A program made the translations under genes and the position numbers. The notes beneath the pieces are model-generated. The model was not told the DNA's origin. It searched no databases and saw nothing but the letters and a program-made list of their open reading frames with translations. A stretch of 64,000 nucleotides of DNA from Bdellovibrionia bacterium (GTDB lineage: Bacteria; Bdellovibrionota; Bdellovibrionia; Bdellovibrionales; JAGQZY01), in assembly GCA_030424715.1 (NCBI GenBank), contig JAUHWH010000001.1, forward strand, positions 248,001 to 312,000, given 5' to 3'. The stretch's first letter is position 1. Each line of letters starts with the position of its first letter. Shown here piece after piece: positions 17,768 through 53,945 of the stretch.

Positions 17768-20356
17768 CTATTGGGCGATGGTGTGCTTGAACCGCAATGG
17801 TTTGGCGTTTTTGAAATCTACGAAAAACTGATCAGCCACTCTGGGATCTTCTTCGAGCGGCGCACAGTAGCCGTACAGTTGAAACGGCGTTTTAAGACCT
17901 CGAAAGGGTTTGTACCAGACGCCTGGCAAGGGTTTTGGGTCTTCACCCTTGATCTTTCTCAACTTCTCTTGCTTGCGACGGTCACGTAAAAAATTAAGCA
18001 TAAAAGCCGATTGCGTCTCGAAAGCCTCTAAACCTAAGCCGCAGACTAGATCTTTCTTCTCATCTCTTTGCACCCACTCGAGCCCATACCCGGTCCAGGA
18101 GACCTGTTCAGCCCCCTTATATAAGCCCGTTTGTAAACGAAGGCTTTCCACTTTCTGAGCATTGGGTATTTCAAACTGAAGGGGAAACAACGACAAGGAT
18201 CCCTTAATAACATCTCCGCTAGTCTGTAGACTCACGCCGTTCATGGAGGGGAGGTTCGCGGCTTTATCTGCGCTCAAGAACTCGAGCAGAGCCTGTTTCT
18301 CCCAGAAATAAGGATTGATGATCAAGTGAGACACAATGAAGTTGCGAAAGTTATCTTCGATAATTTTTAACAAATGATCATTGTAAACGTTAAAAACGCG
18401 ACCGATACAAAACGTACCTTCGGGCATCTCTGTGCAATAAGTCAGTATGTTGGTCACTTCAAATACTGTAACCCATTCCCTCTGCCAGGTGCGCCCGAGA
18501 CGATCCTTCACCGAATCCGACCGGATGTCTTCGGTCTTAAGATCGAGATTTTGAATGGTGAAGTCTTTCATGGCTGCAGGGCGAACAAATCGTGAAACCG
18601 AATTCGCCAAAATTCCTTGTTTGCCAATAAAGTTTTTCATGAACAATTTGAGGCCGAAAAACCCTGGGTTTCTCAAGTCATTGTCACCATAGACGATCAA
18701 CTGCGAATAAGGCGCCCCGTAAGACAGGTTTTGTAAACGTTCTTTGTTACCCGAATCATTCTTCGGCTGATAAAACACATCCGAGACCAAAAGATCGACC
18801 TTGTCAGGCGTGTTTTCAATATTGTAGCCATAGGCTTGAAAATCGAACTTTTTCTCTTTTTTCAATTGCTCCTTATACTTAATAAAATCCGCTTTCGAAG
18901 GAGTGTCGATCAGCCCTGCCAGTTGTGGATAATAGCGGTCATTTATTTTTTGGAATACGCTTTGGGAAAGATCAAACTGAGACGGCAGGATCGCGGGAGT
19001 CTCGTCGCTGGTGTAGGACTTCCAATCGAGAACAACTTCGTTTTTCTGTCGCAATAGGTTTTGAACCGAGAAGAAGGTCTCTAGCACTTTTGCGTTTAAC
19101 GGATTGAGGATCAATTCATCGACTTTTGCAAAATCCATCGGCACAGTCACGTCAATTTTTATTTCCGTAAAAGCTCGAGCGGCCTCGGGGTATTCGTCAA
19201 ACTGCGGCAAATAGGGCAATGACAAAGACTGCAGCATAAGAGCGGGTTTGAAGTTTAAGACTCGCTTCATAGCAAGCTCTATCGTCTGAGGCTCAGATCC
19301 CCCAACATATTTCTCATAGGCTAATTTTAAATCTTTTGACGGAGTCCCTAAATTGAAGTTTTCAGAATTGGTGGCCGCGAAAACCAGGGCCACGATGTCA
19401 CCGTTTTCATCCAACAAAGGGCCACCACTGTTGCCGGGGCTGGTTCCAGCACTGTACCGCAAAAATTTTACGTCCGGTTCATCAAGGTCAGACGACTCAC
19501 TGGATATAATGCCATCTCGGATGGCGATGCCCTCGCCGTGCACGTTACCTACTGTGTATACCTTTTGCTCGATCTCGTAGTTTTCCGCAAAATCCAGGTG
19601 CCCATAGTCTTCCATCCCTTGGGTTTCTAGAAAAAGAAAGTCGCGTTTGACGTCGAAGCCCAAAACTTTTTTTATCTGGTGCTGTTCGCCGTCCGCCGTT
19701 TTTAAGTAGAAATCGTTATTGATATCGATAACCATACGACCCATCAGACAGTGGGCTGCGGTCAAAACCACGTTGGGTCCCACCAGAAAGCCCGTACAGA
19801 AGCCACTGGACTCTTTGAAATCACTATCTTGCAGTTTTGCGTACTTTTTGATCTCGGCGATGGCTTCGTCATCTCGATTGGTTTCGAACTCCACGATTTT
19901 ATCGCGCACCCGACTGATGAGTTTCGATTGTTGTACAGACTCTGGCTCTTGCCTAATGGCCATATAACCAAAAAGACTGACCGCCATAAGAAGCGCCACC
20001 ACAGCTCCGACCATCAAGACTCTTTGTTTAACCTTGGCTTTGTGCTCACCATGCACCACCGAGTAAAAATCCAGTTTCGTTTTACCACTCTCGACATAGG
20101 CGGCCGTCGCAAAGCCAATCTGGTCGCTGATATAAAATATTTCACGATTGTTAATCACATGGGTGCGACTGGCTTCAGCATTTTCATAGGTCCACTGTCC
20201 TTCATTAAAAAAGAGCTTGCCGTGTTCCGGGTCCAAAGAAAAATGCTGCACCACAATATTGTTGCTGCTGGAGCGGCCGAGGGTGTACTCCCCGGGCTCC
20301 AAGTCTAAGGTTTCAACAACCATATCAAGATGAATTATCGCCAATTTTAAATTCAT
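17768..20356 (-). CDS. FHA domain-transmembrane-trypsin-like serine protease
   Basis: With the ATG at 20356 (GGAG 9 bases upstream; a longer frame from 20395 has a weaker site) the protein has 862 residues. Residues 1-100 form an FHA domain, a phosphothreonine reader (LGR at 26-28, LDPEH at 41-45). One membrane helix spans about 112-132. Residues 180-350 form a chymotrypsin-like protease with the triad His202 (LTAAHC), Asp239 (KRDFLF) and Ser310 (SPGNSGGP). Residues 360-862 are a large region of unknown family. The topology puts the FHA domain inside and the protease outside the inner membrane, hinting at phospho-signal control of a periplasmic protease. Single gene, divergent from the MOSC gene. 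Confidence 0.85.
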   Translation of the reverse strand: MNLKLAIIHLDMVVETLDLEPGEYTLGRSSSNNIVVQHFSLDPEHGKLFFNEGQWTYENAEASRTHVINNREIFYISDQIGFATAAYVESGKTKLDFYSVVHGEHKAKVKQRVLMVGAVVALLMAVSLFGYMAIRQEPESVQQSKLISRVRDKIVEFETNRDDEAIAEIKKYAKLQDSDFKESSGFCTGFLVGPNVVLTAAHCLMGRMVIDINNDFYLKTADGEQHQIKKVLGFDVKRDFLFLETQGMEDYGHLDFAENYEIEQKVYTVGNVHGEGIAIRDGIISSESSDLDEPDVKFLRYSAGTSPGNSGGPLLDENGDIVALVFAATNSENFNLGTPSKDLKLAYEKYVGGSEPQTIELAMKRVLNFKPALMLQSLSLPYLPQFDEYPEAARAFTEIKIDVTVPMDFAKVDELILNPLNAKVLETFFSVQNLLRQKNEVVLDWKSYTSDETPAILPSQFDLSQSVFQKINDRYYPQLAGLIDTPSKADFIKYKEQLKKEKKFDFQAYGYNIENTPDKVDLLVSDVFYQPKNDSGNKERLQNLSYGAPYSQLIVYGDNDLRNPGFFGLKLFMKNFIGKQGILANSVSRFVRPAAMKDFTIQNLDLKTEDIRSDSVKDRLGRTWQREWVTVFEVTNILTYCTEMPEGTFCIGRVFNVYNDHLLKIIEDNFRNFIVSHLIINPYFWEKQALLEFLSADKAANLPSMNGVSLQTSGDVIKGSLSLFPLQFEIPNAQKVESLRLQTGLYKGAEQVSWTGYGLEWVQRDEKKDLVCGLGLEAFETQSAFMLNFLRDRRKQEKLRKIKGEDPKPLPGVWYKPFRGLKTPFQLYGYCAPLEEDPRVADQFFVDFKNAKPLRFKHTIAQ

Positions 20357-20468
20357 AGAATCTATCTCCGCCTTCACCCAATAAACACTCAACATAGTAC
20401 TGATATGTCCAAGAGGAGTAAAGGGCTCAACTTGACGTGCCCACAGAAAAAGAGCTAATCAATCAGGC

Positions 20469-40223: not shown

Positions 40224-41123
40224 ATGGGAAGTGAATTATTACTTTATCTGGGGATTTTATTGGCGGGCTTTTCCGTTCTCTGGACCGTCTTTACAATTTT
40301 TTCGGTGAACGAAGACAGCAAGGCTCTTTCTTGGGCCACGGGTGATCGCCCCGACAAATCGGAATCGCCTATCATCAACTGGTCTCGCCCACTTGTTCAC
40401 CAACTCACTATTAAATATGCGAAACGCATAACCAATGCCAATTTTCGAAAAAATATCGAATACAAAATTATGACCGGTGGTCTCGACAACGAGCTTAATG
40501 TCGATGAGTTTATCGGCCTCAAAATGCTATGGGGCGTGTTCTTTCCCGTGCTCATGGCAATCTTGAATTTTTCTCTGAGCCTAGGATACCCATGGCCCGT
40601 GTTTGTCATCGCAGTCCCTTTTGGCTGGATGATTCCCGATTTTCACGCCAACAAGCAAAAACAATTTCGGTACCAAGCGATTATAGTGGATTTGCCTTTC
40701 TTTGTTGACCTCCTCGCTCTTTCAACCCAAGCGGGCGCCGACTTCATGGGTGCGATTCAAAAAATCACAGACGCCGCTGAGAATAGTCTATTGGCTAAAG
40801 AGTTTGACAAAGTGCTTCGCGACACTCGTCTTGGTAGTACCCGAGAGCAGGCCCTTAAAGGCATGTCAAAACGTCTCGACATCCCTGAGGTTACTAGCTT
40901 CGTGAATGTCTTGACGGATGCTGACTCCACAGGAGCTAGCATCGGGGGCGTCCTGAAAGAACAATCCGAACAAATGCGCCTTGAGCGATTTGTTCGAGCT
41001 GAAAAAGCGGGGGCAAGAGCCTCGCAAGCCATCTTACTACCAATGATGCTGTTCATTATACCCGCCGTTTTCATCATGGTTTTTGCACCTGTTGGACTGC
41101 AATTCATCTACGGGGGGCAGTGA
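40224..41123 (+). CDS. tadC: TadC-like type II secretion F-domain membrane protein
   Basis: A 299-residue inner-membrane platform protein of the Flp/Tad pilus type. It has an N-terminal helix (4-24), a hydrophobic pair at about 95-135, a cytoplasmic T2SSF domain (VDLPFFVDLLALSTQAGADFMGAI; later PEVTSFVNVL with SIGGVL) and a C-terminal hydrophobic hairpin (270-295). The normal partners TadA (ATPase) and TadB are absent from this window; the neighbour upstream is the divergent maf. It starts the plus-strand operon with DUF192 and FHA genes. Confidence 0.88.
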   Translation: MGSELLLYLGILLAGFSVLWTVFTIFSVNEDSKALSWATGDRPDKSESPIINWSRPLVHQLTIKYAKRITNANFRKNIEYKIMTGGLDNELNVDEFIGLKMLWGVFFPVLMAILNFSLSLGYPWPVFVIAVPFGWMIPDFHANKQKQFRYQAIIVDLPFFVDLLALSTQAGADFMGAIQKITDAAENSLLAKEFDKVLRDTRLGSTREQALKGMSKRLDIPEVTSFVNVLTDADSTGASIGGVLKEQSEQMRLERFVRAEKAGARASQAILLPMMLFIIPAVFIMVFAPVGLQFIYGGQ

Positions 41124-41473
41124 TGGGACATGTGTTGATTAACCAATCAGAAAATAGCACGCTGCTCGATGATTTGACGATCGCCACCAGCTTTCGGTCA
41201 CGGGCCCAGGGTCTTATCGGTACTCGATCTCTCAACGAAAATGCCGGAATCTGGTTCCCGAAAACAAATTGGATCCATACTTTTTTCATGTCGATCCCCA
41301 TCGATGTCATCTACCTCGACAAATCCATGCGAGTTAAAAAACTGCAGCCAAACTTACAGCCTTGGCGCTTTCCGGCTCCTGTGTTCAAAGCCCACTCCGT
41401 TGTGGAAGCCAGCGCCGGCTTTATTCGCCAAAAGAATCTAAAAATTGGAGATCAGTTGCATGTGGGCCATTAA
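41123..41473 (+). CDS. DUF192 family protein
   Basis: A 116-residue protein with the DUF192 pattern: SFRSRAQGLIGTRSL (R-x-x-G-L-M-x-R), GIWFPKTNWIHTFFMSIPIDVIYLD, and the C-terminal GFIRQKNLKIGD. The function of this family is unknown. Its ATG overlaps the tadC stop (TGATG at 41121-41125). It has no signal peptide here, whereas many DUF192 proteins are exported. Confidence 0.88.
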   Translation: MGHVLINQSENSTLLDDLTIATSFRSRAQGLIGTRSLNENAGIWFPKTNWIHTFFMSIPIDVIYLDKSMRVKKLQPNLQPWRFPAPVFKAHSVVEASAGFIRQKNLKIGDQLHVGH

Positions 41474-43091
41474 GATATTGAACGGCTCTCAGGCCGGAAA
41501 AATTTTTCAAGCCAGCGAGGGCAGTCACACAGTGGGTCGCTCGACGCAAGCAACAATGAGAGTGAAAAGCGCCTCTGTCTCAAAAGTGCATGCCAAGATT
41601 ATCGTGACAGAAGACAAGGTCATTATCTCAGACAACAATTCGAGTAACGGCATTGTTGTTAATGGCGTCAAGGTCCAAAACAAGGCTCTCCGCTCCGGTG
41701 ACAAATTTGCTCTGGGCGAGGTTTTGTTTGATGTGATTCAGCTGCCAAATTTTGTATCCATCATTCCCGACTCGGGAACACCTCGGCCCCAGCCAATGCA
41801 GCAGGGCAATACCGCCCTGGCTCCGCAAAATTTTGCAATGGATAACCCTGAACAGCACCACGACATGCAAGTGCTAGCAATTAATGTGGCGCCAGCAGAA
41901 CAAGAGCCCGTCGCCACTTTAACTGTCCAAGAAAAATTTGAAAACTATATTGAAAATGTAGCACTCCCTGGTGTCTACGAATACTCGTACAAGTTTGACC
42001 TAAAATACATCGTGATGTCTTTTGTAGTTCTATTTGTTCTGGTTGTGACAACCCTTTCCGTCATTCCTGTCCTTCGGGTGTCCCGAGATTTTGTAGTGGA
42101 CGAAAGCAGTCGGAGGGCGGACTCTTTAGCGAAAATTCTAGTGCAAGAAAACCGACAATACGTTATCGAGAAAAATGAATTTAGCATCAATGTCCGGTCA
42201 GCTAAAAATGAAGCCGGAGTCGACCAAGCCTTTATTATCGACGCCCTCGATGGTCACATCATCGCGCCGGTCCAGCTGAATGGACGTTACGCCAACATTC
42301 CATTTGTGCAAAAAGCCCGGAAAAAGCCTGGTCACTATCAAGAGGTTATGGACAACACCATTGGCGTGAGTCGCCCGATTCTCTACACGAACCCTTTGAC
42401 CGGAGAGCCATCTCCGGCCGCCTATGCCATCGTTTTATACAATCTGGACCGAGTGGCTCTGGATGTTCCAAGAACATTAAGTCTGATGATCCAAATCTTG
42501 CTCATCACCTTGATAGCTGGTGGAGTTTTATACTTTTTTCTCTACAAAGTGATTACAAAGCCCATCTATGATCTCAATGAAGAAATGAACGCGGCTCTTA
42601 AAGAGGGTAATAATAATGTTGAGACCCGTACACCGACCCCTATCTATCAAAAGCTCGTTTCCAATATTAACAGCGCTCTGTCCCGCATGAGTCAGGACGA
42701 ATCTCAGCAAATGACCGTGGGCCTTGGCGACAAGAACATGGAAGCCTCGGAACTTGTCCATATGTTTCCGGTAGCGACCATTGCCATTTCATCTGAGGAT
42801 GAGATGGTGATCGCCCACAACGATCTGATCGGTGGCCATCCTCTTTTCGACGATGAAAATATATTAGACAAAACTCTAGATGACTTGACGGACCCCTCAC
42901 TTGTCGAAAACCTGAAGGATTTGTTGCAAAAGTCGGTGGATAATCCCAATCAAAAGCACAGCAACAGTCTTCCCTCGGGGAGCGGTATTCAATTTGAAGT
43001 CTCTATCAAGTCAATACAAGAGCTAGGCACTATCAGTTACTATGTTGTTTGTTTTACAGAAGTCTATGACGAGGAGAATTTCGAAGAGTGA
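41460..43091 (+). CDS. FHA-domain membrane sensor protein with HAMP/PAS-like output
   Basis: Start at the ATG at 41460 (GGAGAT upstream; 543 residues). Residues 1-95 form a canonical FHA domain with Gly26-Arg27, Ser41, His44 and Asn63, the residues that contact phosphothreonine. Transmembrane helices lie near 183-205 and 340-362, enclosing an extracytoplasmic sensor domain of about 130 residues. A HAMP-like segment follows (about 363-415), and then a PAS-like domain (about 430-540). There is no histidine kinase or GGDEF domain, so the output is unknown. It overlaps DUF192 by 14 bases and the next FHA gene by 4. Confidence 0.85.
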   Translation: MWAIKILNGSQAGKIFQASEGSHTVGRSTQATMRVKSASVSKVHAKIIVTEDKVIISDNNSSNGIVVNGVKVQNKALRSGDKFALGEVLFDVIQLPNFVSIIPDSGTPRPQPMQQGNTALAPQNFAMDNPEQHHDMQVLAINVAPAEQEPVATLTVQEKFENYIENVALPGVYEYSYKFDLKYIVMSFVVLFVLVVTTLSVIPVLRVSRDFVVDESSRRADSLAKILVQENRQYVIEKNEFSINVRSAKNEAGVDQAFIIDALDGHIIAPVQLNGRYANIPFVQKARKKPGHYQEVMDNTIGVSRPILYTNPLTGEPSPAAYAIVLYNLDRVALDVPRTLSLMIQILLITLIAGGVLYFFLYKVITKPIYDLNEEMNAALKEGNNNVETRTPTPIYQKLVSNINSALSRMSQDESQQMTVGLGDKNMEASELVHMFPVATIAISSEDEMVIAHNDLIGGHPLFDDENILDKTLDDLTDPSLVENLKDLLQKSVDNPNQKHSNSLPSGSGIQFEVSIKSIQELGTISYYVVCFTEVYDEENFEE

Positions 43092-44026
43092 GTGCTTTGA
43101 AGTATAATATATTTAAAGCTATTGATTTTCTAATCAAGGTGGAGTCCGGCCCTGATAAGGGGCGCGTCTATCGCCTACTCCCTCCTCAGGTCACTCTAGG
43201 CAGAGACCCTTCGACCTGCCAAATCGTATTAGGTGATGCAAAAGTCAGTCGCCAACAGTGCACGATCAAATTTAAAGACAATGTGATCTGCGAGGATTTG
43301 AGCACTCGAAAGACCACATTGGTCAACGGTCACCCCTGTCGCCGGACGATACTAAAGCCCGGCGATCGCATCTCTTTTGGGGACACTTCTTTGGTTTTTG
43401 AAACCCGCTCGAAAGCCCAACCGACGCCCGAGCTCGGAGGCCAGACTCAGCCCACCGAGGAAGCGCGCAACAAATCCGAGGGGCGCAAAAAGTTTCGCTT
43501 GTTCTTAATTGCCATCATTGCCTTATTTGGGGTGGTCCTCGCCTTGCAGCAGGAGAACTCGGCACCCCCCAGTGAAAACCTCGCCACCCAAGAAGATCTA
43601 AATAAGCAAATCGAAGCCAGCCGAGAGAGGGCCTCGCTCTTGCGGGATTCTCGAGAAGAAAAAATCAAATTAAATGATAAAAAATATCTCTACAGTGTCG
43701 AAAAACATTTTATCTCAGGATTTAGAGACTTCCAAAATGGTCGCTACGGCAGAGCCCTTGATTCTTTTGGAACAACGATCGCTACAGACCAGACCCATGC
43801 CCGAGCGCAACAGTACGCGAAGTCCGCTCGTAAAAAGCAGGGCGATCTGATCGATACCCACCTGCGAGATGGTGAAAAATACAAAAATAAAATGATGTTT
43901 AATCGTTGTGCTGCTGAGTATGAAAAGGCGTTGGTTTTGATTACCAATGTCAACTCGAAGCGATACGATTTAGCTAAAGCTCAATTGACAGAATGTAGAC
44001 TGCTGAAGACAGGGGGCTACCAATGA
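43088..44026 (+). CDS. FHA-domain membrane protein with TPR-like repeats
   Basis: A 312-residue protein. An N-terminal FHA domain (about 12-108) has Gly38-Arg39, Ser55 and Asn80, but Gln58 replaces the usual His. One membrane helix spans about 136-153. The C-terminal 110 residues hold TPR-like helices (FQNGRYGRALDSFGTTIATD; FNRCAAEYEKALVLI). The FHA domain is inside and the repeats are outside if the helix crosses once. GTG start overlaps the previous stop, and the stop overlaps the next ATG by 4 bases. Confidence 0.83.
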   Translation: MSALKYNIFKAIDFLIKVESGPDKGRVYRLLPPQVTLGRDPSTCQIVLGDAKVSRQQCTIKFKDNVICEDLSTRKTTLVNGHPCRRTILKPGDRISFGDTSLVFETRSKAQPTPELGGQTQPTEEARNKSEGRKKFRLFLIAIIALFGVVLALQQENSAPPSENLATQEDLNKQIEASRERASLLRDSREEKIKLNDKKYLYSVEKHFISGFRDFQNGRYGRALDSFGTTIATDQTHARAQQYAKSARKKQGDLIDTHLRDGEKYKNKMMFNRCAAEYEKALVLITNVNSKRYDLAKAQLTECRLLKTGGYQ

Positions 44027-45987
44027 ATATTCTTGTTTATAAAGACGACCAATTGGTTCAGGAAATCACTCTCGTCACTGGTCAAAGCTATAGCGTTGGG
44101 CGTAAAGAAGGCTGCTCCATCCAACTCGAGAAGTTTCCGGGTATCTCACGACAACACTTCGAAATCGAGGAAGAAGGCCCTGGCTCGTGGAGAGTCAACG
44201 TTATGTCTGATATAAAGCTAATCGAATTCGAAGGTGAAGAGCGCAAAGACTTTTTGTTGAGTGAAAAAGGTAAGTTCTTCTTGTTTCCGTACACCTTCAA
44301 GTTTTCGGGAGACCCTTTGGCGGTGCAAAATTCACAACCCGAGGGCAGTGAGAACTTCTCTGTTGAGCCTCTTGATCAGGATATTGAGGCCATAGAACCG
44401 GTCAACTCCGATTCTGATCTGGCAGCCGAAGATCTTGATGGTGACAGTGATGAAAAAACCACAATCCAGAGTTTTAATGGCCTGCCCTATATAAAAATTA
44501 TCGGACAAAAAGGCAAAAGGTCAGAATATTTTCGGCTTGAGGGCAACCTATGGGTAATCGGGGGGCATGAAGGCGCTTCGGTTTTTTTGCGGGAGCCCGC
44601 AGCTTCGCAGAATCACTTTGAAATATCCCGAACTGACAAAGGCTTTTTCATTATTGATCTTGGGTCAAAACAAGGCACCGAACTCAATGGACAAAAGCTG
44701 ATTGCCAAGAAGCCATCTCATCTGCAGAGCGGCGATATTATAACCGTCGGTAACACCTCTCTGCAATTCGAATTGCGCGACAAAGCCTTTAAAAGAAAAG
44801 TGAACAATATTCCACTAAATGTTTACAAAAACCCCCTGCTCTTTTTTGATCAAGATGTTGCCATGGTCTCACTAGATGACGAAGAGCTTAGCCCTGGACG
44901 TGCGGAAGAAATCAGTGCAAAAGCTCCTGCTGTGGCTAAAAAGAAGAACCGAAAAGTCTTACTTGCCGTGGTTGCCAGTTTGTTTCTCCTGTTTGCAGTA
45001 GGTAAAGAGTTTCTTGTTCAAGACACTGGAAAACCGAAGCCTGTGGTGGGCGCCGACCCTTTCAGCCAGCTATCTCCGGCTGAGCAAAAGATCGTTAAGC
45101 AAACCTACAAGCTGGCCAGTCAACTGTACCTTGGTAAAAACTATGAGCTCTCCTTAGTGCAACTTGAGAAACTCCATACGATCATCCCGGTCTACAAAGA
45201 ATCGAAAAAGATGGAAGAAGACTGCATTAACGCCCGTGATATTCAAAGACAGATGGCACTGCGCGAACAACAAAAAAAGCAACAGATCGAAATGGAGAGA
45301 AGGGTGAACTCAGCGATTGCCCAATGCGAGAAAAACTATGCAAGCTCCAACGACATCGATGGAGTCAAAGCTTGTTTGGCTCCCGCTGCTGACCTGGACC
45401 CAAACAATCCAAGAATTGCCCAACTGATTACCGAGGTGACCGCTCGAGATGAGGAACAAAAAATTCGTCAAAAGATCGCGCAAGAGCAAGCAGAAAAGAT
45501 TCGGCGAGGTAAAGAGCTCTATCAAAGGGCTCGCGTCTTACACGACAAACATCGCTGGCTAAAAGCCATTGAGGCCTACGAAAACCATATTCACTCGGGA
45601 TTGCCCGACCCCCAAGGTCTTGTTAAAGACTCGAAGCGTAAGCTCTCTAGCATTGAGAACCAGATAAAATCTAAAAAGGACCAACTCCTTGGCGAAGCAA
45701 AAGCCAAATACAGCGGAACACAACTACGAGATGCTCTAAAGCTGGCGAGAAAAGCCCAGCAAGTGGACCCCTATGATCCCAAGATTTCATCATTTCTCTT
45801 TCAAGTTGAAAAAGAGTTAACCAACAAAATGAAAACCATTTACATGGACAGCGTTATTGAAGAACGGTTCGGTAACCTAGAGGCTAGCCGAGTGAAATGG
45901 GAAGACATTATCAAACAAGACATCGAAGATGGTGAATACTACCTCAAGGCCAAACGAAAGTTAAAGCAATATGGATATAAATATTAA
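44023..45987 (+). CDS. Tandem-FHA membrane protein with TPR-like repeats
   Basis: A 654-residue protein. The first FHA domain (about 1-98) keeps Gly26-Arg27, Ser42 and His45. The second (about 154-253) has Gly-Gly-His at 180-182 where Gly-Arg is expected, but keeps Ser195, His198 and Asn222. It is probably a non-binding or altered domain. An acidic linker (105-145) separates them. One membrane helix spans about 311-327. The C-terminal 330 residues contain helical repeats and coiled coil (YKLASQLYLGKNYELSLVQL; ALKLARKAQQVDPYDPKI). The next gene overlaps by 17 bases. Confidence 0.85.
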   Translation: MNILVYKDDQLVQEITLVTGQSYSVGRKEGCSIQLEKFPGISRQHFEIEEEGPGSWRVNVMSDIKLIEFEGEERKDFLLSEKGKFFLFPYTFKFSGDPLAVQNSQPEGSENFSVEPLDQDIEAIEPVNSDSDLAAEDLDGDSDEKTTIQSFNGLPYIKIIGQKGKRSEYFRLEGNLWVIGGHEGASVFLREPAASQNHFEISRTDKGFFIIDLGSKQGTELNGQKLIAKKPSHLQSGDIITVGNTSLQFELRDKAFKRKVNNIPLNVYKNPLLFFDQDVAMVSLDDEELSPGRAEEISAKAPAVAKKKNRKVLLAVVASLFLLFAVGKEFLVQDTGKPKPVVGADPFSQLSPAEQKIVKQTYKLASQLYLGKNYELSLVQLEKLHTIIPVYKESKKMEEDCINARDIQRQMALREQQKKQQIEMERRVNSAIAQCEKNYASSNDIDGVKACLAPAADLDPNNPRIAQLITEVTARDEEQKIRQKIAQEQAEKIRRGKELYQRARVLHDKHRWLKAIEAYENHIHSGLPDPQGLVKDSKRKLSSIENQIKSKKDQLLGEAKAKYSGTQLRDALKLARKAQQVDPYDPKISSFLFQVEKELTNKMKTIYMDSVIEERFGNLEASRVKWEDIIKQDIEDGEYYLKAKRKLKQYGYKY

Positions 45988-46669
45988 GCTGACGGAACGC
46001 TCTTATGGCGGCAAAAAATTTCGCCCCAACACGGTTGTCGATTTCGAACCATCGAACAATCTGTTGCTGTGTGTGACGCCCTGGGGACAGACCGGAGTTG
46101 CTGAAAAAGTCATTCAATCCATTAAAAGCTTTGTCACCATGGCCAACGAAGACACTGAGCTGACAGTCCCTTACGCTCGCAAGGAAAACCTACAACACTT
46201 TGGCAATATTCTTCGTATGGCCGTGATTATGGCCAGTGAAAAGATCAACTCTGAATTTAACAAAGAAGAATACACTTGTGGGTTCGAGATCTTTGCCGCT
46301 ATCAAAGACGGTCCCCAGTGGATCTATGTCAGCTGTGGCCAGCCGACGTTGGTGGTGCATCGCCCCGACACAGGCACCCTCCCCCTGTCGCAAGCCATTG
46401 ACCTCAATGTTCTTACCTTAAAGAATCCTATACATGATCCATTACCCAACCAACTGTTGGGCCTTGGTCAGCACCCCCCTATTCAGTATGGAAACATCCG
46501 ATTGCGGGGTCGCGACAAGTTCGCCTTGATCAGTCGCACCTATTTACCAAGCGCTTTTTTCCAATTGAATAAAGATGAGTTTGATATCGATAGAATCTCT
46601 CGAACACTGGCCGACGACAACCAAGAAGTTCCCTTTTGGCTAGGATTCATTCATCTCGATGAGATGTAG
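45971..46669 (+). CDS. PP2C-fold protein lacking catalytic metal ligands (pseudo-phosphatase)
   Basis: A 232-residue protein that follows the PP2C Ser/Thr phosphatase fold in outline: a helix (LRMAVIMASEKI), paired strands (GFEIFAAIKDGPQWIYVSCGQPTLVVHR), then RGRDKFALISRTY and a C-terminal helix-strand. The expected Asp residues are gone: the usual G-D-S-R is CGQP, S-D-G is SRT, and the first D-G-x-G-G is replaced by TPWGQTG. Such a protein would bind rather than hydrolyse. It ends the FHA operon, and its 3' end overlaps the convergent sulfatase-like gene by 30 bases. Confidence 0.6.
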   Translation: MDINIKLTERSYGGKKFRPNTVVDFEPSNNLLLCVTPWGQTGVAEKVIQSIKSFVTMANEDTELTVPYARKENLQHFGNILRMAVIMASEKINSEFNKEEYTCGFEIFAAIKDGPQWIYVSCGQPTLVVHRPDTGTLPLSQAIDLNVLTLKNPIHDPLPNQLLGLGQHPPIQYGNIRLRGRDKFALISRTYLPSAFFQLNKDEFDIDRISRTLADDNQEVPFWLGFIHLDEM

Positions 46670-50640: not shown

Positions 50641-50666
50641 TTTTTAAGACATTGGGGGAAAACAAT

Positions 50667-53600
50667 ATGCAATCAATCAAAATGGCCATCGGTCTGGTTA
50701 TCTCGGCAGCTCTGCTGCTCACCGGATGCACCGAAGACCGACAAGAACAAAAAATACTGAAACCACAAGACGTGGTTTTTTCTAAAAGCAACATCGACAC
50801 CCAGGCGAACTACCTTTACGCGCCACTGGGTCAAGAAAGCAGCCGCACCTCCTTGTACGGGCGCTCTTTTGAAGTGGGACAGTCCAAGGTTGTTAAGTTA
50901 CAGATCAACGAGTTTTCTTTGGACGTGCTTTCCATCGAAAAAGACGACCGTTTTTCTGACAACCCAAACAACCAAAAACTGCTGATTTCTATCCCCATTG
51001 AACATGTGGACTATCGCTGCGCCGATGACGCTTACGGCGAGTGTATTGGCAACGAGGTTGAAAACGAACGCATCACCTGGGACCAAAAGAAGTTCTTCAA
51101 GGCCAAGTTCGCCGATGCAAAAATTGTGGACACCAACTTTTTCTCCTATGAATTTGCTGGCCAAGGACAGTGCTATTCTGAGGAAAACTCTGAACTTCTG
51201 GCCCGATCCATCACCTCAAACAGTCTGAACTTCACACTGAAGCGCGACTACAAAGACGAGTTGTTTTTCTTTTGCATCCGAAACCATGATCTCTCCGACT
51301 TTACCAACTTAAACTGGACTGAAACCACCAGCTATTCTTTGGTCAAACTTGCTGATGTGGCTTCGCCGGATTACCCAAAAGCTGTGTATCATCCGGACTG
51401 GATCAATACTTTTGGTTTTTTCGAAACGGATGACTACCAATTGGATGTGGACGGTAACGCCACCCAGAACGGCGAAATTAAATACATGCAACGTTGGAAC
51501 CCCAATCGCTCTGAAATTGTTTATCATTTGAGCGAGAGTTTTAACAAACCGCAAAACGCTGCACTAAAAGCGGCCACCTACGAGTCTTTCAATCGACTGA
51601 ACAGTGGTCTGGCAAAAGCAGGAGCCAAGTTTCGCTTGAAACTGGCCGAACCCAGTGCAGAATCGGACCCATCGGACCTCAGAAAGTCGATGGTTATCCT
51701 TGTGGATGACCCGGCCGCAAGCAGTGTGATCGGTTACGGACCCTCCATCGTCAATCCCTTAACAGGAGAGGTGATCGCAGCCAGAACCATGATGTATTCC
51801 GGTTCGATTCGAAAGTTTGTTCGATTCACTTATGAGGACATTGTTCGTGACTATGGCAAAGAGGCGACTACTGAAGGCGCAACCGCTCCATCTTCTGGCG
51901 CAACCCAGGCCTCGAACCTCTCTGAAAGCTTAGGGAACCTAAGTGCTGACTTCGCGATGCCCATGAGTCGGCTGGAGGCCCAAAGCCTGGTTGATTTTAG
52001 TAAAATCGATGCTCTGAAGAGTGACGTGATTCAAAACCAAGTCAGTCGCACGCCAGAGTTGAGCGAAGACGAGATCGATCACTTTATGAAAAACGAAGCC
52101 AACAAAGACTACATGAAATTGTTGGCTGAACAAAACAAATACCCAGCTGAAGCTTTATCCTTCGGTGAAGTCAGCCAAGATATGTTGCAACAACTCATCG
52201 CTGAAGTGGGACAGCTGAAACCTTGGGAGACCCTTACAGACCTGGAAAAACAAGGGGTTTTGAATGTTCTCACGCCTTATGTTTGGGTGCCCACTCTCAT
52301 TCACGAGATTGGCCACAACCTAGGTTTACGACACAATTTTTCCGGCTCTGAAGATGCTGACAACTTTTACGCGCCTGAAGAAGTCGCAGCCCTGGCCATC
52401 CCTGCTTTAGACGCCCCAATGCCCTATAGCTCGGTGATGGATTACCCAAAGTCTGAGGTCAATGCCCTTCGTGCTTTAGGCAAATACGACATCGCTGCTC
52501 TACAATTCGGGTATGCTGACGCGGTGACTTTAGAAGACGGAAGTATTGCTAAAGTCGATTCTGCTAAAACACCGACCGAGGGTCTCAAGGCCTATCAGTA
52601 TTGCTCAGATGAAGGTGTCGCTCCCAACCCCAGCTGTAATCCCTTTGATGAAGGGGTCACCATGGTTGAGATGGCTCAAAGTATGATCGACAGCTACGAA
52701 GAGCGATACACCACCAGTAACTTCAGACGAGGACGTGCCAACTTTAGCGGACTCGGCGATGACAGATATTTAGCGAGCAAGAATCGTACGTTTCGTAACC
52801 TCCGTTTAATCTTTGAGCGTTACGAATCTCTCGTGAACGACTTTGATCTGGATCAAGAGACGATTGATTCCGTGCCATGGTTGAGTGAACTGGATCAAGC
52901 GGTGGAATTGGCCACTGATTTTATGATCAAGGTCATAAAAACTCCCGACACAGTTTGTATCATTCAAGATCGAGCGACTGGACAGTTGCAACCGGCCCCC
53001 ATTGGGATTTTTAGCCAGTTGGCTCACGATCGCACCCGACGCTGTAGCGACTTACAGTTGAACGAGCAATTCATGGTCGTTGGTGAAGGAGGCAAACCCT
53101 TGAACTCTTTAAAGTTGCCGAGCAATCCAAATCGATACGCCGATCAAATTGATGTGCGTGGGACTTGGATTGATAAGGCACTGGCCATGCGAACGTTGTT
53201 TCGCAGAACCGTGGGAAGCACCCTGCACGATGACGTCAACGGCAACTTTTTGGATCATCCCAAGTCGGCTCCTAAAATCATGCAGCTGGTCCAGGACATG
53301 ATGACGAACAACATGGTCGCACCTGTTGACATACAGTTTGTCGACGGAACTAAAACAACGGCCAACTTGGGCGTGAGATTCGACGATGGTTTCTATGAGA
53401 TTCCGGCTCCAGAGCTGCCACTGCCGAACTGGATCCTTGGACTTCCTTATATGAACATGACTTTGCCTGAAGCTTTGACCATGGTTCTACAGCGCAATGT
53501 TGCCCAGGGCTCCGATTCACCCACCAAAACCCTGATGCTTGAGTCGCTTAAAGTCTATCGTTTTCACCCCAATCCGGGGTCGAGGGACTATCTGTCGATT

Positions 53601-53945
53601 GATGCCAATGGCGAAGAGCTTTTTGTTCACCGTCGCAGTCAGCTTGCTGCGACCCTGGTGACTGCAGCTCAACGTGCCAGTTTCTACGAAAGCACCGGAC
53701 TTGATATGGGGACCTTGGCCAGCCTCCTTGAGAAAATGGAAGCCGAAGCTAATAAACCACCGGTTTTCGAAGACCCTAAGGAGGAAACACCTGTTGGGGA
53801 GAATGCGGTGACTCCGTCTTCACTTCTAAGCTCGTCATCTCCGGCGGAACAAGCTGTGATCCAACTGGGTGCTGAGCCTTTGCGGGCGTATCTCAACAAC
53901 CCCACAAGCTCGGACTATATGAAGAGAATTTTACTGTCTCTGTAA
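50667..53945 (+). CDS. Very large metzincin metalloprotease lipoprotein
   Basis: Start at the ATG at 50667 (GGGGGA upstream), giving 1092 residues. The signal ends LLTGC (Cys21), a lipobox. HEIGHNLGLRHNFSGS at 546-561 is a metzincin zinc site (His546, His550, His556), and a Met-turn-like SSVMDY follows at about 590. This matches bacterial zinc-dependent metalloproteases with HE(I/V)GH-x-LGLRHNF. The N-terminal 540 and C-terminal 490 residues have no named domain; several cysteines occur. Probably surface-anchored. A terminator follows at 53969-53998. Confidence 0.85.
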   Translation: MQSIKMAIGLVISAALLLTGCTEDRQEQKILKPQDVVFSKSNIDTQANYLYAPLGQESSRTSLYGRSFEVGQSKVVKLQINEFSLDVLSIEKDDRFSDNPNNQKLLISIPIEHVDYRCADDAYGECIGNEVENERITWDQKKFFKAKFADAKIVDTNFFSYEFAGQGQCYSEENSELLARSITSNSLNFTLKRDYKDELFFFCIRNHDLSDFTNLNWTETTSYSLVKLADVASPDYPKAVYHPDWINTFGFFETDDYQLDVDGNATQNGEIKYMQRWNPNRSEIVYHLSESFNKPQNAALKAATYESFNRLNSGLAKAGAKFRLKLAEPSAESDPSDLRKSMVILVDDPAASSVIGYGPSIVNPLTGEVIAARTMMYSGSIRKFVRFTYEDIVRDYGKEATTEGATAPSSGATQASNLSESLGNLSADFAMPMSRLEAQSLVDFSKIDALKSDVIQNQVSRTPELSEDEIDHFMKNEANKDYMKLLAEQNKYPAEALSFGEVSQDMLQQLIAEVGQLKPWETLTDLEKQGVLNVLTPYVWVPTLIHEIGHNLGLRHNFSGSEDADNFYAPEEVAALAIPALDAPMPYSSVMDYPKSEVNALRALGKYDIAALQFGYADAVTLEDGSIAKVDSAKTPTEGLKAYQYCSDEGVAPNPSCNPFDEGVTMVEMAQSMIDSYEERYTTSNFRRGRANFSGLGDDRYLASKNRTFRNLRLIFERYESLVNDFDLDQETIDSVPWLSELDQAVELATDFMIKVIKTPDTVCIIQDRATGQLQPAPIGIFSQLAHDRTRRCSDLQLNEQFMVVGEGGKPLNSLKLPSNPNRYADQIDVRGTWIDKALAMRTLFRRTVGSTLHDDVNGNFLDHPKSAPKIMQLVQDMMTNNMVAPVDIQFVDGTKTTANLGVRFDDGFYEIPAPELPLPNWILGLPYMNMTLPEALTMVLQRNVAQGSDSPTKTLMLESLKVYRFHPNPGSRDYLSIDANGEELFVHRRSQLAATLVTAAQRASFYESTGLDMGTLASLLEKMEAEANKPPVFEDPKEETPVGENAVTPSSLLSSSSPAEQAVIQLGAEPLRAYLNNPTSSDYMKRILLSL

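Follow-up and report, generated by a model that had tools for sequence, protein, structure and literature searches.

How the Tad machine is switched on at prey contact has, to our knowledge, not been established. The locus described here raises the question of which machine it serves and by what parts that machine could be controlled. The window that we analysed is a stretch of 64,000 nucleotides (C15:248001-312000, where C15 is contig JAUHWH010000001.1) from the 3.13-Mb genome, in 18 contigs, of a member of the class Bdellovibrionia (order Bdellovibrionales, phylum Bdellovibrionota). It holds an operon of six genes that encode a TadC-type protein, a DUF192 protein, three FHA membrane proteins (FHA1, FHA2 and FHA3) and a last protein, here called gene 6, that is predicted to have the fold of a PP2C phosphatase. 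We report that this is a TadC-containing Tad-pilus operon, that its gene order is conserved across the phylum, and that gene 6 in this class is a predicted pseudophosphatase. The operon brings together a TadC platform, proteins predicted to read phosphothreonine, a membrane protein that looks like a sensor and a predicted pseudoenzyme, a short list of candidate control parts. Tad (type IVb) pilin genes are essential for Bdellovibrio predation (PMC5430801).

Results

The six open reading frames, all on the plus strand in the order TadC, DUF192, FHA1, FHA2, FHA3, gene 6, follow one another with overlaps of 1-4, 14, 4, 4 and 17 bases (Table 1). Pfam recognized the first five at scores above the curated cut-offs: T2SSF in TadC (59.8 bits against a cut-off of 25.2), DUF192 (69.6 bits), and FHA in FHA1 (54.5 bits), FHA2 (57.8 bits) and FHA3 (77.7 bits, in two stretches). 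Gene 6 had no match in the Pfam search. Judged by hydrophobicity, TadC has three hydrophobic helices, FHA1 has two hydrophobic transmembrane (TM) segments, and the DUF192 protein and gene 6 have no TM helix; TadC is 50-68% identical to its orthologues throughout the order. An earlier reading of the window, made from the sequence only, had named these six overlapping genes and had counted four FHA domains in three membrane proteins, and it agrees on both points with the open reading frames, the Pfam matches and the hydrophobic TM segments.

The other Tad genes lie ~155 kb from the operon in a main Tad locus at C15:432001-452000 (L026), with the Tad core genes at about C15:438-446 kb. This locus encodes TadE-like pseudopilins, a TadZ(ParA)-TadA fusion and TadB (at C15:445340), together with a putative Flp pilin, prepilin peptidase, CpaB/RcpC and secretin RcpA, which were named by reading their sequences. 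No TadC was found in the main locus, and no other full-length copy was found in the genome. Given that the Tad locus is without TadC, the operon in the window supplies the only full-length TadC found in this genome. With its T2SSF domain, and with TadA, TadB, a secretin, CpaB and a Flp pilin in the same genome, it is a TadC-containing Tad-pilus operon. The TadZ-TadA protein was present in 79 of 79 phylum genomes, and TadC was found in 78 of the 80 genomes tested.

Three further observations concern these Tad genes. The TadZ (ParA) and TadA parts are fused in a protein of 735 amino acids (aa) encoded at L026:10740-12947, with full-length or near-full-length matches in nearly all phylum genomes tested. 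Directly after TadB, an RHS-repeat/DUF6531 protein is encoded at L026:13847-15538, and it is also found in another genome, G008 (L288). A truncated TadB-like/TadC-like pair (254 and 141 aa) lies with a gene for a 152-aa protein at C15:416381-419010 (L025:8381-11010).

The arrangement seen in the window is kept far beyond this genome. Gene 6 was detected in 77 of the 79 genomes of the order (this one included) and, by profile, in 196 of 242 phylum genomes with a completeness of at least 90%. Within the order, all six genes are contiguous, in the same order and on the same strand, in 38 of the 39 contexts with enough sequence. The exception is a 1.5-Mb genome (G064:C35; L099 and L145) whose gene 6 shares a contig with the TadC-DUF192-FHA1-FHA2-FHA3 block but lies ~18 kb upstream of it. 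The six-gene order was also found in 3/3 contexts from another family of the class and, outside the class, in 40 of the 48 contexts with enough sequence, one of these 40 having ~2.5 kb inserted after TadC; three of the 48 have TadC alone. The DUF192 protein fills the second slot in every resolved six-gene context. An absence of gene 6 in family f13 (L177), where the contig ends, was left uncounted. Since the order is kept in tens of other genomes, chance is ruled out. Confinement to this genome would have told against the envelope assembly with TadC that the sequence-only reading had proposed, and the order is not so confined. An FHA-rich, TadC-containing assembly is borne out by the phylum-wide order and by co-occurrence with TadA and TadB. 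The conservation of the six-gene order across the phylum is new here.

Matching gene order, protein lengths and neighbors make the operon the orthologue of Bd0470-Bd0475 of Bdellovibrio bacteriovorus. B. bacteriovorus kdesi (L244) has the identical six-gene order, with Maf and sulfatase flanking genes as in the window, and the protein sizes agree with the published lengths of Bd0473 (386), Bd0474 (674) and Bd0475 (228) (PMC12034629). Bd0470-Bd0475 are stated to form one operon, Bd0474 bound Bd0075 by two-hybrid, an interaction between Bd0475 and Bd0473 was predicted with an interface predicted template modelling score (ipTM) of 0.604, and the C-terminal part of Bd0474 was described as TPR and extracytoplasmic (Abulude et al. 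2025, PMC12034629). A transposon insertion in Bd0470 (tadC) abolished attachment, killing and rounding, the same class of predation defect as in a pilT mutant, and an insertion in Bd0474 abolished killing and rounding with prey attachment kept; the authors remark that tadC is upstream of Bd0474 in one operon (Duncan et al. 2019, PMC6561027). Among the pilus genes down in host-independent strains is bd0470 (Capeness et al. 2013, PMC3818213), and flp1, flp2 and flp4 are needed for predation (Avidan et al. 2017, PMC5430801). The Tad loci are apart in strain HD100 too, at Bd0109-0119 and Bd0470 (PMC5430801, PMC6561027). Compared with Bdellovibrio-family members, TadC of the window is ~57% identical and the other proteins roughly 25-35%, and the window genus differs further in a degenerate phosphothreonine site in the second FHA domain of FHA3 (FHA3-B).

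Neither Pfam nor NCBIfam gave a usable match with which to annotate gene 6, and fold comparison was required. The AlphaFold2 model of the protein has a mean predicted local distance difference test score (pLDDT) of 94.6, and its top Foldseek matches were PstP (1txo), tPphA, MsPP and PppA (6jkv), the phosphatase of a type VI secretion system (T6SS), at E values of 1.3e-11 to 7.6e-11; a profile search of PDB sequences found tPphA weakly (E 2e-4). We scored the four catalytic/metal Asp residues of PP2C (motifs NED, DGxGG, xDG and DN) in 86 gene 6 sequences. None of the four is present in the window protein or in any of the 46 sampled class members. In contrast, proteins in the same slot in other classes have the PP2C motifs NED, DGFGG/DGMGG, xDG and DN; of 40 non-class relatives, 24 keep all four Asp, among them 20 of the 21 from family f12. 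The other sequences keep 0-3, partial scores that hinge on the alignment at the C-terminal motif. The class-wide score of 0/4 is independent of that alignment, given that DGxGG is replaced by a T-x-W-G-type sequence.

In a quick, unrooted tree built from TadC, a single group with full support gathers the 45 class members, and at least five state changes fall on well-supported branches. As the tree has no root, the direction from phosphatase to pseudophosphatase rests on general knowledge of the fold, in which the catalytic form is ancestral. The ratio of nonsynonymous to synonymous substitution rates (dN/dS) for gene 6 ranged over 0.011-0.086 in those genus pairs that allowed its calculation, the higher values resting on nearly saturated dS. 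Ratios this low show strong purifying selection on the inactive form, and five residues (N97, E106, G123, G164 and W223) are invariant. Gene 6 is a conserved protein and not a decaying gene. The sequence-only reading had called it a degenerate PP2C, and rightly so: the model matches PP2C at E ~1e-11 and the catalytic motifs are gone. Gene 6 in this class is thus predicted to be a PP2C-fold pseudophosphatase, a protein with the modelled fold that fails the definition of a catalytic PP2C. Because the active site is lost, it is unlikely that the PP2C encoded in the operon still dephosphorylates substrates here. Bd0475 stands as hypothetical in published work, and our literature search found no paper naming it a PP2C or pseudophosphatase. 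The conversion of phosphatase to pseudophosphatase inside a phylum-wide Tad/predation operon is the new detail of a known operon.

The retained pocket residues suggest that FHA1, FHA2 and the first FHA domain of FHA3 (FHA3-A) are phosphothreonine readers. In FHA1, the phosphothreonine residues R27, S41, H44 and N63 are invariant in 94/94 phylum sequences (the window included). In FHA2, R39 and S54 are likewise invariant in 94/94, the pocket Asn being K75 in the window. FHA3-A of the window keeps R27/S42/H45, and the Arg and Ser are nearly always kept across sequences. In the AlphaFold2 model of FHA1 (mean pLDDT 86.8), the FHA domain is followed by a disordered linker and TM1, then by a sensor-like alpha/beta domain in the periplasm; after TM2, a long, putatively signalling coil leads to a PAS-like domain. 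The domain names beyond FHA are our reading of the model. The FHA part matches FhaA and the FHA domain of B. bacteriovorus DgcB, which was solved with a phosphopeptide; phosphothreonine reading by an FHA domain therefore has a precedent in Bdellovibrio. Elsewhere in the window, a minus-strand gene at 17771-20395 encodes an 875-aa protein with an N-terminal FHA domain (barely above the cut-off) and a trypsin-like protease domain.

The kinase had been expected to be encoded away from the operon, and this fits our survey: a Ser/Thr kinase was found in 74 of 75 genomes, none linked to the operon by position. A form of ~630-700 aa is widespread and is the sole Pkinase match at E 1e-8 in several genomes of genus g16 (presumably Bdellovibrio proper); the version in this genome combines a TM helix with a PEGA domain. 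A Pfam-recognizable PP2C was found in 75/75 genomes, and the strongest one in this genome lies away from the operon and has its motifs intact. Since neither the PEGA kinase nor this separate PP2C is positionally linked to the operon, their roles can only be proposed. The L025 operon with the truncated pair also holds a 342-aa membrane Ser/Thr kinase that bears HGD and DFG motifs; this operon is patchy in the order. The kinase looked promising as one dedicated to the machine but was rejected as the general writer of the phosphothreonine marks, since at E 1e-10 it had no counterpart in genus g16 or in many others.

Beyond the operon, the window encodes a protein of 1097 aa (50652-53942, plus strand) that contains a protease domain of the Met-zincin (DUF4953) kind. 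A FliA promoter upstream of tadC was considered and set aside, since the scores (mean 8.33) did not clearly exceed those of shuffled sequence (mean 8.16).

Table 1. Genes of the operon, in window coordinates (position 1 is the first nucleotide of the window)
Feature	Position	Strand	Description	Orthologue
TadC-type inner-membrane platform protein	40224..41123	+	T2SSF domain, 299 aa	Bd0470
DUF192 (COG1430) protein	41120..41473	+	117 aa from GTG (first ATG 41123)	Bd0471
FHA1	41460..43091	+	FHA ~41529-41717, TM1 ~42009-42065, TM2 ~42465-42521	Bd0472
FHA2	43088..44026	+	FHA ~43190-43381, one TM ~43493-43549, helical periplasmic C-terminal part	Bd0473
FHA3	44023..45987	+	FHA-A ~44071-44307, FHA-B ~44551-44751, one TM ~44956-45012	Bd0474
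Gene 6, predicted PP2C-fold pseudophosphatase	45971..46669	+	232 aa	Bd0475

Discussion

We propose that the operon provides TadC, one half of the inner-membrane platform in a Tad (type IVb, Kil-like) machine, together with a phosphothreonine-reading control and assembly module that includes a pseudophosphatase adaptor, and we put the probability of this reading at roughly two in three. TadC would join the separately encoded TadZ-TadA motor, TadB, RcpA and RcpC. FHA1 could be a membrane sensor that senses the envelope through its periplasmic sensor-like domain, with its FHA domain in the cytoplasm and a PAS-like domain beyond, and FHA2 and FHA3 would each cross the membrane once, with their FHA domains on the cytoplasmic side and a helical part in the periplasm. 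The FHA proteins are expected to bind partners phosphorylated on threonine, for which the membrane Ser/Thr kinase with the PEGA domain is the most likely writer. In an organism that is presumably itself a predator, they would position the machine or gate it, and would in this way link a signal from the envelope or from contact to the assembly or firing of the pilus in the attack on prey; these steps from phosphorylation to pilus firing are drawn from the protein families and the mutants of the orthologues. Gene 6 would ancestrally have been the PP2C phosphatase of the operon, and we infer that its most likely role in this class is that of an adaptor that binds other proteins, FHA2 being one example, with dephosphorylation, if any, left to the separate intact PP2C.

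A more specific version of this proposal is tentative, and we hold it at somewhat less than even odds. The operon phosphatase would have become a conserved pseudophosphatase at or before the base of the class, and would have been lost or eroded repeatedly elsewhere, with the FHA readers kept. The resulting phospho-sensing or phospho-independent adaptor would gate TadC-dependent pilus assembly at prey contact. If true, this would amount to a pseudoenzyme switch on a predation machine. A natural comparison is available between class members with a dead gene 6 and relatives from other classes in which the gene in that slot looks intact.

The same parts could instead be structural, the FHA proteins forming YscD/SctD-like scaffold rings that use their FHA folds for packing in a static Tad basal body, with gene 6 as one more scaffold part. 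All three FHA proteins match Pfam Yop-YscD_cpl above the cut-off, FHA2 and FHA3 have an FHA-TM-periplasmic, single-pass architecture like that of ring proteins, the FHA3-B site is degenerate in this genus, and gene 6 has lost catalysis. However, invariance of the pocket Arg and Ser of FHA1 and FHA2 throughout the phylum sequences is unexpected from packing alone, and outside the class the operon of many members includes a PP2C of the intact type. The SctD/YscD ring protein of the type III secretion system (TIGR02500) was itself tried and rejected, since the scores of 21.8 and 26.1 bits fall below its cut-off of 86, and only the cytoplasmic FHA-like Pfam domain matches. We consider a purely static scaffold unlikely.

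Gene 6 might also still be an enzyme by another route, with an unusual metal site or a different substrate, such that the operon keeps its own phosphatase. The fold, which is intact at high confidence in the model, the strong purifying selection and the few invariant residues would suit an enzyme, but those residues include no metal-binding Asp/His set and the four tested Asp positions are substituted in every sampled class member, which leaves this idea very improbable. Just as little probability falls to the suggestion that the operon is a separate envelope system with a borrowed TadC, unrelated to pilus assembly. Its distance from the other Tad genes, and the equally separate loci of HD100 (PMC5430801, PMC6561027), would be expected of such a system. 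A separate system would, however, leave the TadAB locus without a TadC in a genome where no other full-length copy was found, and TadC and TadZ-TadA each occur almost throughout the phylum. Moreover, bd0470 is co-regulated with pilus genes (PMC3818213), and its mutant shares a class of predation defect with the pilT mutant (PMC6561027).

Several observations weigh against our own proposal of a phosphothreonine-reading Tad module. Five genomes of family f14 (L178-L182; 5 of the 48 contexts outside the class) have the first five genes and no PP2C gene after FHA3, and the module is apparently able to work without gene 6 in that slot. Genome G008, which is rated 100% complete, keeps its Tad locus (L288, C33:106001-125000), and neither TadC nor gene 6 was found in it; gene loss or an assembly gap may account for this absence. 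With the Tad locus intact and an assembly gap possible, we set G008 aside as evidence of co-loss. FHA3-B of this genus has lost its phosphothreonine Arg and Asn (the Arg is gone in the congener G001 as well), residues that nearly all other members of the phylum keep; the Arg stands in 92 of the 93 other sequences, leaving aside one gap. Not every FHA domain here therefore need read phosphothreonine. Finally, the L025 kinase is not conserved in Bdellovibrio proper, which leaves the operon with no kinase linked to it by location.

The T6SS threonine phosphorylation pathway consists of PpkA, PppA and Fha1/TagH. The sequence-only reading had likened the operon to this kind of control, and the likeness stands as functional logic, in which an FHA reader, a PP2C and a kinase control an envelope machine. 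It does not extend to the parts themselves: the T6SS FHA family (TagH/VI_FHA, NCBIfam) was rejected at 28.5 bits against a cut-off of 120.25, the machine here is Tad, the active site of the operon phosphatase is lost, and the kinase is unlinked. Gene 6 shares its fold with PP2C enzymes of the PppA/PstP type and differs from them in the four catalytic Asp residues, which are absent in this class.

A closer relative is Kil, the contact-dependent killing system of Myxococcus xanthus, which has a Tad secretin, an ATPase, TadB/TadC, CpaB, split clusters and many FHA proteins (PMC8460266). The Tad core of the present genome is likewise split between two loci ~155 kb apart, and several FHA proteins, with four FHA domains, are encoded in the operon. 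Unlike in Kil, for which an N-terminal FHA domain on the ATPase is one stated signature, the ATPase here is fused to TadZ (ParA/CbiA domain) and has no FHA match, and TadC lies within the FHA operon, away from TadB. Kil/Tad-like machines with many FHA proteins have been described in Myxococcales, Bdellovibrionales and Bradymonadales (Seef et al. 2021, eLife, PMC8460266). The suggestion that the operon might belong to an undescribed system has to be given up in view of these FHA-rich Kil/Tad systems and of Bd0470-Bd0475, an operon already defined (PMC12034629) and already hit by predation mutants (PMC6561027).

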